From positions 1-64,000 of the forward strand of contig NZ_JAIKLE010000028.1 of assembly GCF_022267315.1 (NCBI RefSeq): DNA of 64,000 bases. Reading direction: 5' to 3'. Shown piece after piece: positions 1 to 55,958 of the stretch. The position numbers were made by a program, and so were the translations under genes. Position 1 is the first letter of the stretch; each line of letters starts with the position of its first letter. The notes beneath the pieces were generated by a model, which was not told where the DNA came from, did not search any database, and worked only from the letters and a program-made list of their open reading frames with translations. This stretch comes from Maribellus maritimus. GTDB taxonomy: Bacteria; Bacteroidota; Bacteroidia; Bacteroidales; Prolixibacteraceae.

Positions 1-57
1 TCAACCTAACTAAACCAATAAAACTAATCAAACCTAAACTTATGAACTAAAACTCTG
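1..57 (-). ncRNA. Candidate small RNA, copy A (cut by window edge)
   Basis: Body of the repeated small-RNA-like unit. On the minus strand transcription would start near 55-57, just after the -7 box at 61-68, and read towards position 1. The 58-nt body is nearly free of C and rich in U and G. The hairpin seen in the other copies would lie outside the window. No Rfam family was identified by eye. Confidence 0.55.
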
Positions 58-60
58 CTA

Positions 61-68
61 CAAATATA
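61..68 (-). promoter_or_regulatory. -7 promoter box of copy A
   Basis: The minus strand reads TATATTTG, matching the Bacteroidota -7 consensus TAnnTTTG. A canonical TTTG at -33 is not evident, but the upstream block that reads TTTTTTAACATTCAG on the minus strand is conserved in copies A to C and recognisable in copy D. Confidence 0.55.
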
Positions 69-244
69 TGTCGAAAAACATATTTTTGTGTTATCTGAAT
101 GTTAAAAAAACACATTATTTGTTTTTCTAAAATCTATCAATATTAGATTAGATCTATGAAAATGCTGTGAAAGTATTCCTTTTTGCGACAAAATGATTTA
201 AATGATTTTGGGAGGGGATTCAGAATTGAGATGTGATTTTTATA

Positions 245-333
245 AAAAAGAAAAAGGATAAGTCAATACTTATCCTTTTCAACCTAACTAAACCAATAAA
301 ACTAATCAAACCTAAACTTATGAACTAAAACTC
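245..333 (-). ncRNA. Candidate small RNA, copy B
   Basis: Complete unit of about 90 nt. The minus-strand RNA starts near 333, contains the invariant C-poor body, and ends in a hairpin at 252-279 (arms AAAAGGATAAG and CTTATCCTTTT, six-base loop) followed by a T-rich run. That is the architecture of an intrinsic terminator. There is no open reading frame of useful length. Confidence 0.6.
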
Positions 334-338
334 TGCTA

Positions 339-346
339 CAAATATA
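339..346 (-). promoter_or_regulatory. -7 promoter box of copy B
   Basis: TATATTTG on the minus strand, same position relative to the body as in the other copies. Confidence 0.55.
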
Positions 347-524
347 TATCGAAAAACATATTTTTGTGTTATCTGAATGTTAAAAAACACATTGTTTATT
401 TTTCTAAAATCTATGATTTATAGATGTAGTCTATGTATGTGTTGTTGGAGTGTGTTATTTTTTGACATTTTGTATTTGGGTTTTTTGACAATGATGTTAT
501 GAGGTATAAAAATGGGAGAGAGTA

Positions 525-614
525 AAAAGGAAAAAGGATGAGTCAATACCCCATCCTTTTCAACCTAACTAAACCAATAAAACTAATCAAACCTAAACTT
601 ATGAACTAAAACTC
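525..614 (-). ncRNA. Candidate small RNA, copy C
   Basis: Complete unit. The body is identical to copies A and B. The terminal hairpin at 532-560 has arms AAAAGGATG and CATCCTTTT with a longer loop. Stem bases differ from copy B but pairing is kept, and a T-rich tract follows on the minus strand. Confidence 0.6.
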
Positions 615-619
615 TGCTA

Positions 620-627
620 CAAATATA
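620..627 (-). promoter_or_regulatory. -7 promoter box of copy C
   Basis: TATATTTG on the minus strand, conserved although flanking bases on the upstream side have changed. Confidence 0.55.
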
Positions 628-792
628 TGTTGAAAAACATTGAAGTAGGTTAACTGAATGTTAAAAAACATGCTCTACAACATATGTAAAATCTATGTTA
701 ATTCGACTAAATCTATAAGAGGTTCGTGGAGGTTTGCTTTTGTTGAGGAGAACAATTCAGGGAGAATAGTTGCTGTGCCCTCATGAGCGGGT

Positions 793-880
793 AAAAAGAA
801 AAAGGACAGGTCAACACCTATCCTTTTCAACTAACTAAACCAATAAAACTAATCAAACCTAAACTTATGAACTAAAACTC
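793..880 (-). ncRNA. Candidate small RNA, copy D
   Basis: Complete unit. The body differs from the other copies by one missing base near its 3' end. The hairpin at 800-827 pairs GGATAGGT with ACCTGTCC through one G-U pair, with a four-base loop and a following T-rich tract, so the stem has changed with pairing preserved. Confidence 0.6.
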
Positions 881-885
881 TGCTA

Positions 886-893
886 CAAATGTA
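886..893 (-). promoter_or_regulatory. -7 promoter box of copy D
   Basis: TACATTTG on the minus strand. The two variable positions of TAnnTTTG differ from the other copies while the fixed positions are kept. Confidence 0.55.
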
Positions 894-971
894 TGCTATA
901 AAACACATTTGTAGGTTAACTAAATATTAAAAAGTATGTTTTGCAGCATATCTTAAGTCAATGTTAAACTT

Positions 972-1014
972 AAAACAGGGGTCAATCAACGTTAAGTCGA
1001 TTGACCCCTGTTTT
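972..1014. other. Strong 16-bp perfect hairpin
   Basis: AAAACAGGGGTCAATC at 972-987 pairs perfectly with GATTGACCCCTGTTTT at 999-1014 around an 11-base loop. It lies between the small-RNA array and the floA terminator. With T4 on each side it could stop transcription in either direction; no other role is evident. Confidence 0.6.
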
Positions 1015-1065: not shown

Positions 1066-2043
1066 TTATTCTCCCTTTTTGCTTTCTTCTCCTGCAATGG
1101 AATCTCTCATTGATGTGTCGGCCATAATGTTTTTGTATTTCATATAGTCCATCACACCCAGATTACCTTTGTTAAATGCTTCGGCGATTGCCAGCGGCAC
1201 CTGTACTTCGGCTTCAATTACTTTTGCCCGTGCTTCCTGTGCTTTGGCTTTCATTTCCTGTTCAAGAGCGATAGCCATAGCCCTGCGTTCCTCCGCTTTG
1301 GCCTGTGCTATGTTTTTATCGGCATCGGCCTGGTCGATTTGTAATACCGCCCCAATATTTTTACCAATGTCGATATCCGCAATATCAATAGAAAGGATTT
1401 CAAATGCTGTGCCCGCGTCAAGTCCTTTTTCCAAAACCACCCGGGAAATAAAATCAGGATTTTCCAATACAGCTTTATGTGAATGTGACGAACCGATTGA
1501 TGAAACAATTCCTTCCCCTACACGGGCAAGAACGGTTTCTTCTCCGGCTCCACCCACCAGTTGTTTAATGGAAGCGCGGACCGTTACCCTTGCTTTTGCG
1601 ATCAACTGAATACCATCTTTGGCAACCGCTGTAACCGGAGGAGTGTTTATAACTTTTGGGTTTACCGACATTTGCACTGCTTCAAATACATCGCGACCGG
1701 CCAAATCAATAGCAGTAGCCATGTTAAAAGGCAGATCAATATTTGCCTTTGATGCCGACACCAGTGCATGCACCACATTGGCTACATGCCCTCCCGCAAG
1801 ATAATGTGCCTCCAAGGCATCCCGACTCAAATGAACGTCAGCTTTTGTTCCTTCAATTAATGCACGAACGATGATCCCCGGCGGGACTTTTCGGAAGCGC
1901 ATGAGAAAGAGTTGTAACAGCGAGATTCGTACACCGGAAACCAGCGCTGAAAACCAGAGCCCGATTGGAATAAAATAAAGAACGATAAATAACAGGACAA
2001 TAACTCCAATTATTAGTCCCCACGTACCGACTGATTCAACCAT
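1066..2043 (-). CDS. floA: Flotillin-like protein FloA
   Basis: A 325-aa flotillin-like scaffold protein of the UPF0365/FloA family, about the usual family length. An N-terminal hydrophobic hairpin (about residues 8-45) anchors it to the inner membrane. The band-7-like core follows ([13 protein letters not shown] region onward), then an alanine/glutamate-rich coiled segment (about 235-290, [14 protein letters not shown]). The family organises membrane microdomains; that role is taken from relatives. The nfeD-like gene lies one base upstream in the same direction, the classical flotillin-NfeD pairing, so the two are almost certainly co-transcribed and work together. Start chosen at the ATG giving MVESVGTWG. 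Confidence 0.93.
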
Positions 2044-55652: not shown

Positions 55653-55756
55653 TCAAAACAGACTTCGAAGACCAATAGTATCGGGATAAACCTGGAGCAA
55701 AATCAGCGATTCTGCCTCTGTTTGTCGCCGGCTTTTATTCCTCGAAAGCCATCAAC

Positions 55757-55948
55757 TAAAATCTTGGCAGGTCTTCTGACTTACTCCATCTTTGAAACTC
55801 CCTTCCCATCCGTCAGATGACGGACAGTGGTTTTGAGTATTGTTCAAAGACTTTGGCGGAGCTTACAGCAGCGGGTCTGTTCAGGATTTTCACCTGATTC
55901 CCTTTTCACCGTTTCTTCGATTATGAAAAATGCGGCACCAAAATCGGA
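55757..55948 (-). ncRNA. Cobalamin riboswitch
   Basis: On the minus strand the aptamer shows GGGAATCAGGTGAAAATCC, ACAGACCCGCTGCTGTAAG and the 3' B12-box AGTCAGAAGACCTGCC, in the standard order and spacing. Ligand binding normally blocks expression of downstream uptake genes, here starting with btuB about 105 bases on. A perfect palindrome CCGTCA/TGACGG (55810-55823) forms a peripheral stem. The expression platform could not be resolved by eye. Confidence 0.92.
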
Positions 55949-55950
55949 GG

Positions 55951-55958
55951 CGAAGTTA
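55951..55958 (-). promoter_or_regulatory. -7 box upstream of the cobalamin riboswitch
   Basis: TAACTTCG on the minus strand, seven of eight to TAnnTTTG, placed so that transcription would start at the first base of the aptamer. Confidence 0.4.

Follow-up and report, generated by a model that had tools for sequence, protein, structure and literature searches.

SusC porins are the route of most polysaccharide uptake in Bacteroidota, and control of their translation is so far known from one gut species. In Bacteroides thetaiotaomicron, 14 FopS small RNAs (sRNAs), composed of a single-stranded 5′ part and a terminator, bind the translation starts of SusC mRNAs and repress translation, as described in the available text of PMC11697453. 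The same source presents FopS (Rfam RF04319) as paralogous multicopy sRNAs with a canonical σABfr-type promoter, reports that RbpB binds them and counteracts their repression, and names LhrC of Listeria monocytogenes as a multicopy sRNA family. GibS of Bacteroides (RF04182) is largely unstructured and uses a 5′ seed to pair at start codons; it is encoded by one 145-nt gene and differs in its targets and promoter motif (available part of PMC7366714). Here we describe an array in Maribellus maritimus that we read, with a probability of roughly 0.7, as encoding a lineage-specific multicopy sRNA that would block SusC translation and be FopS-like in its action. Such a family would carry the principle of control at the SusC start, through another RNA sequence, into a lineage that is mostly environmental. 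In the open-access literature, we found no paper on this array or on any Prolixibacteraceae sRNA.

Organization of the array

The whole stretch of DNA analyzed, hereafter the window, is 64,000 nt long and begins with the first base of contig C122 of the 7.33-Mb genome. A 109-nt repeat occurs in it four times (1–109, 279–387, 560–668, and 826–934), copies 2 to 4 sharing 99%, 92%, and 85% identity with copy 1 at spacings of 278, 281, and 266 nt. The units jointly span 1–893 on the minus strand, and each is composed of a TAnnTTTG box, a near-invariant C-poor body of about 60 nt (GTAGCAGAGTTTTAGTTCATAAGTTTAGGTTTGATTAGTTTTATTGGTTTAGTTAG(G)TTG), a hairpin, and a T-tract (Table 1). The four-copy minus-strand array recognized in the first-pass annotation is thereby confirmed, with the repeat at four sites and the same order of box, body, and hairpin in each. 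Its remark that the three visible hairpins differ in sequence and still pair also holds, and is extended by stem covariation over 30 units (see below); the hairpin of unit 1 is cut off by the contig end.

Table 1 Features of the sRNA array and of associated genes in the window
Feature	Position	Strand	Description	Score
Unit 1	1..68	−	Box TATATTTG (61–68) and body; terminator beyond contig end	62.5–65.1 bits (model R1), match cut at 3′ side
Unit 2	250..346	−	Box TATATTTG (339–346), body, terminator hairpin 251–280 (fold)	104.1 bits (model R1)
Unit 3	530..627	−	Box TATATTTG (620–627), body, terminator hairpin 531–561 (fold)	100.0 bits (model R1)
Unit 4	798..893	−	Box TACATTTG (886–893), body, terminator hairpin 800–827 (fold)	113.0 bits (model R1)
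Upstream promoter region, unit 1	69..138	−	TTAACATT element	
Upstream promoter region, unit 2	347..416	−	TTAACATT element	
Upstream promoter region, unit 3	628..697	−	TTAACATT..TTAACC, partial dyad TGTT....AGCA	
Upstream promoter region, unit 4	894..963	−	TTAATATT..TTAACC, partial dyad TGCT....AACA	
Inverted repeat, floA-array gap	972..1014	−	19-nt arms, 95% complementary	
floA	1066..2043	−	Constant upstream neighbor of the array	Pfam FloA, E = 1.7e-156
RRM protein, 142 aa	61742..62170	−	About 60 kb from the array	Pfam RRM_1, E = 8.9e-21

Since the window starts at the first base of its contig, no terminator is in view for unit 1, and from the window alone further units could lie past the contig edge. 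A relative assembled as a single contig (G036) carries four units with matching promoters beside a FloA that is 99.4% identical, and by this comparison four is probably the full number of units in the M. maritimus array. The genome as a whole holds these four and one diverged single copy on contig C116, own-genome matches to model R1 of 41 bits or less being left out of the count. This single copy (G000:C116:20092-20183, minus strand; L002) has its own box and hairpin, with a TonB gene on one side and an ECF sigma factor gene on the other. In the centroid folds of the three complete window units, only the terminator forms and the body is single-stranded; some folding within the body is possible in one diverged relative.

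Among 22 sequences (20 fetched loci, the window, and the own single copy), 17 have floA directly upstream of the units in the same orientation, with one to six units per floA site. The five sequences with no adjoining floA are the own single copy, L044, L045, L050, and L051, of which L044 and L045 are two extra loci of one genus. The inverted repeat between floA and the array is likely the floA terminator and could serve to isolate the array from floA transcription.

Conservation of the units in related genomes

We collected 138 distinct units carrying the exact core, 9 further units cut by sequence ends being set aside. An exact TAnnTTTG box stands 12–15 nt before TTCATA in 135 of them, compared with 6 of 138 shuffled upstream controls, and a terminator (stem with T-tract) is present in 136. 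Over 30 aligned units, all of the 360 stem cells are in standard pairs (shuffle mean 93.2%; 0 of 500 shuffles as high) and 35 have both partners altered (mean of 9.3 in shuffles, none of 500 reaching 35); a coarser tally, of doubly changed pairs, gave 5, a value that 56 of 500 shuffles reach. Homologues keep both the promoter box and the paired stem, and the earlier proposal of several copies of one sRNA, each with its own promoter and terminator, agrees with these counts. The sequences support a predicted set of lineage-specific multicopy sRNA genes, each with a box and a terminator.

Within the family of the own genome, BLAST with unit 4 gave matches in 135 of 140 genomes, the own one counted, and in 22 of 23 genera; the per-genome copy numbers from this search are to be read as "at least". 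Within the body, some 40 nt show almost no variation. A scan of named genomes with the body pattern found 60 stretches, whose labels include Draconibacterium, Maribellus, Mariniphaga, Mangrovibacterium, Sunxiuqinia, Prolixibacter, Tangfeifania, and Gaoshiqia, the remaining labels being Prolixibacteraceae, or merely Bacteroidales or Bacteroidota bacterium. Because D. orientale and M. sediminis, two sources of body stretches, belong to Prolixibacteraceae, we infer that the family of the genome searches (f1) is Prolixibacteraceae.

Model R1 matched 4 of 296 genomes in a class-wide search with strict filters and 9 of 40 in an order-wide search at E up to 0.05, own genome included in both; several order-wide matches resemble generic U-rich terminators or 3′ ends. 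Two loci from another family of the same class (L107 and L108, in G354 and G374) carry single units with a TAnnTTTG-like box, GTTCATAG, and a terminator; at 47–48 bits to model R1, they could represent a related family. Phage and plasmid BLAST gave at most weak low-coverage matches (E 0.3–0.9).

Predicted pairing with SusC translation starts

The body had been proposed to pair with the A/C-rich leaders of translation starts. For gene starts in general, target prediction led us to reject this idea: against 980 genes predicted in 1.26 Mb of the own genome, the body reached a mean of −16.89 kcal/mol vs −16.27 in dinucleotide shuffles (7 of 40 as low). Complementary 8- to 11-mers of the body were not enriched at gene starts in general (10-mers: 20 vs 22.3 in shuffles, 99 of 200 as high), nor were perfect matches of at least 11 nt (10 vs 7.1 by chance, 44 of 200 shuffles as high), and the −18 kcal/mol threshold was passed in weak excess, by 362 starts vs a shuffle mean of 282 (maximum 371). 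The exact start-region target AAACCTAAACTTATGA, with 2 mismatches, occurs at 21 places in the own genome, five of which are the sRNA genes themselves, vs 26 for the reversed control.

The proposal stands for the SusC family, of which at least 56 genes in the own genome are over the cut-off. Against the 30 best SusC starts, the body reaches a mean of −22.30 kcal/mol vs −15.27 when shuffled (0 of 100 as low), compared with −16.33 vs −16.02 for 120 other starts (28 of 100 as low). For 20 held-out SusC starts, none of 1000 shuffles was as low. In nine other genomes, the own sRNA variant on the own SusC starts gave z values of −3.3 to −7.4, with 0 of 300 shuffles as low in eight genomes and 1 of 300 in one. 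The 980-gene sample includes 12 SusC-like genes, which overlap in part with the 30 above; their ranks are moderately high (AUC 0.72, p = 0.0045 vs the rest) and exceed those of 110 other genes with a ATGAAAAA start (p = 0.0037). The complementarity is spread out and rich in G-U pairs. Specific pairing of the predicted RNA with SusC translation starts is well supported by these comparisons.

Covariation between the sRNA and SusC leaders

The sRNA base following CATA is A in some genera (CATAAG) and G in others (CATAGG); of the four units in genome G043 one is of the CATAGG type, and of the five in genome G111 one is odd. The SusC base facing this variable base is position −2, where the T:C ratio is 88:19 in CATAAG genomes (135 starts, 8 genomes) and 23:38 in CATAGG genomes (84 starts, 7 genomes). 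This shift (Fisher p = 8.6e-9) is by far the strongest of 34 positions (68 tests), and pairing explains neither of the runners-up, −7 (p = 3e-4) and −5 (p = 0.002). At −7, C:T is 76:33 in CATAAG and 21:32 in CATAGG genomes, with no evident pairing reason. SusD-like control genes just downstream display no shift (T:C 28:14 vs 16:8, odds ratio 1.0). Bases −3 to −1 were ignored when choosing SusC starts, except for the 20 held-out own genes, and locus L326 was left out (in-frame stop).

By genus, T:C is 56:14, 10:2, 10:3, and 12:0 with CATAAG, and 3:6, 4:8, 11:8, 1:1, and 4:15 with CATAGG, g23 (11:8) and g10 (1:1) fitting poorly. A FloA DNA tree covering 17 genomes implies at least two changes of the sRNA base (2–3 in bootstraps), firmly supported branches alone forcing one. 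Since the base changed only about twice, the 219 SusC starts are far from independent: the covariation is strong as a pattern of sequence and rests on few independent events. It designates a testable base pair, the sRNA base after CAUA against susC position −2.

This pattern bears on a reading in which the RNA is mainly a protein-binding decoy: the U/G-rich strand would titrate an RbpB-like RRM protein, the copy number would set the dose, and SusC pairing would be secondary. An RRM protein is indeed encoded in the window, RbpB binds FopS sRNAs and counters their repression in B. thetaiotaomicron (available text of PMC11697453), and the near-invariant stretch of the body is longer than a short seed requires. 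From a decoy, no covariation with SusC position −2 would be expected, and pairing with SusC starts is far poorer for shuffles that keep the dinucleotide content; we therefore regard this reading as unlikely. The 142-aa RRM protein is a candidate RbpB-like RNA partner that may assist the array RNA. Target prediction for the array RNA places the start region of the gene for this protein in the top 20 (z −3.4), perhaps reflecting feedback or chance.

Proposed mechanism and other targets

In the repression reading favored here, the array would yield several copies of one sRNA of about 90 nt, whose single-stranded 5′ body would span the start codon of messages encoding SusC-type outer-membrane porins and, by pairing there, block their translation, the 3′ hairpin ending the transcript. 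Alternatively, the RNA could activate or stabilize SusC mRNAs, or its main targets could be other genes such as fucI, possibilities to which we give an equally small chance as to the decoy. The leader of the fucI gene (L234:9280-11058, plus strand), TAAACCAATAAAA, provides a perfect 13-nt complement to the array RNA immediately ahead of the start codon. Five of the top 20 starts by z, a list excluding genes of 3000 nt or more and those crossing a stretch border, are sugar-related (glucosamine-6-phosphate isomerase, GH2, fucose isomerase, a rhamnogalacturonan lyase domain, and a TonB plug), vs one weak hit in 20 random genes. This 5-to-1 contrast is statistically not firm and the bias suggestive only, and perfect matches of at least 11 nt are as many as chance provides. 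Against activation, pairing over a start codon usually represses. GibS and FopS repress in this manner, according to the available text of PMC7366714 and PMC11697453.

That the array is a functionless repeat family spread by duplication, with promoter and terminator relics, is highly improbable: tandem duplication clearly occurs, as in the three nearly identical neighboring units of L040, but 22 genera share an almost unchanged body, boxes and terminators are kept, stems covary, and the array has a fixed place next to floA.

Promoters of the array

The first-pass annotation held the spacers to be unrelated. They are not wholly so: in eight arrays, the window array included, paralogues are on average 66% identical over the 70 nt preceding the box, compared with 95% over the bodies, and a TTAACATT-like element is present upstream of 93 of the 138 units. 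In four arrays of one genus, the promoter of each of 20 units is closer to one from another species than to any own-array paralogue, a comparison that somewhat favors the other species, as the best was taken over three genomes; the smallest margin, for one unit, is 0.76 vs 0.74.

Because the promoters vary by position and the body stays constant, we interpret the promoter types, each kept at its array position in different species, as multiple inputs to a single RNA. Each copy would have its own promoter and several signals would feed a single output, less sugar-porin synthesis, which offers a possible reason for several identical sRNA genes: different promoters, same product. This layout, one RNA behind position-specific promoters, looks new. 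More tentatively, and with somewhat less than even odds in our view, the array could be a hub in which differently responding promoters, fixed in position over species, drive one RNA that sets the translation of the porin repertoire, the sRNA and the leaders co-evolving base for base. If so, the translation of at least 56 own SusC genes would be set at once.

Comparison with known sRNA families

The earlier statement that no named family fits is correct for membership: no Rfam family matches the array. In an Rfam 15 scan of the 64-kb window, only a cobalamin riboswitch (55749–55957, minus strand, 100.6 bits) and a tRNA reached the gathering score, with nothing beyond chance-level matches for the array, which matched neither GibS RF04182 nor FopS RF04319 (E up to 5 or up to 10). 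It is not correct for the probable way of working, which FopS shares, as far as the available text of PMC11697453 goes.

At E up to 5, none of 11 genomes exceeded the RF04319 gathering score of 56 bits, and the array is absent from the 11 weak FopS matches of the own genome, which mean little at this threshold as 8 of 14 control genomes also match. The conserved R1 seed of FopS (UUUUUCAUGGUAUUAGAUUU) does not occur in the array body. With a profile of 29 FopS 5′ ends, array units score at most 4.5 bits vs 8.5 in 1.2 Mb of the own genome, and profiles of the single-stranded parts of the array RNA and FopS do not find each other above background. Having neither an RF04319 match nor the R1 seed, the array was rejected as a member of the FopS family. 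Units of G360, from the same order, score 51.1 bits to the array model and 38.5 bits to FopS, below the FopS cut-off.

Of 198 genomes searched in the order, 54 carry genuine FopS genes at E up to 0.01, with 36 scoring over the cut-off. The word "tandem" is absent from the available text of the FopS paper (PMC11697453), whereas some FopS genes found here are tandem. Two such loci in other families of the same order (L182, G617:C21:15920-16857, and L183, G547:C1:3141137-3141708) carry over-cut-off FopS genes about 245–290 nt apart. A second, FopS-like sRNA type with a UUUUUUCAUAG seed occurs in the family of the array (L173, L176, L179, L180, and the own C157:97852-97924, L181), in tandem arrays in several genomes. 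It scores 28–39 bits to RF04319 (cut-off 56), with maxima of 39.0 bits in L173, L176, L179, and L180 and 42 bits in L174. The arrays of L173, L176, L179, and L180 share tandem layout, promoter box, and terminator with the window array but form a separate sequence type, which, unlike the array RNA, shows a strong excess of complementarity to gene starts at large (own C157 sRNA: 0 of 40 shuffles as low; 10-mers 35 vs 11.0, 6 of 200).

As a multicopy sRNA family, the array RNA can be likened to LhrC, several copies of which lie in tandem; LhrC belongs to another phylum and has another sequence and other targets. Start-codon pairing by an unstructured 5′ region likens it to GibS, as portrayed in the available part of PMC7366714. 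The resemblance to FopS, taken from the available text of PMC11697453, covers multiple copies, the TAnnTTTG promoter, a single-stranded 5′ part, the terminator hairpin, and SusC-start pairing, seen as complementarity in the array. The array body differs from FopS in sequence, what is common being UUCAU, antisense to the start codon and in the 5′ parts of both RNAs, and a loose UUAGRUUU. Should the two be homologous, this kind of translational brake on sugar uptake would be ancient within the order; otherwise, it would have arisen more than once.
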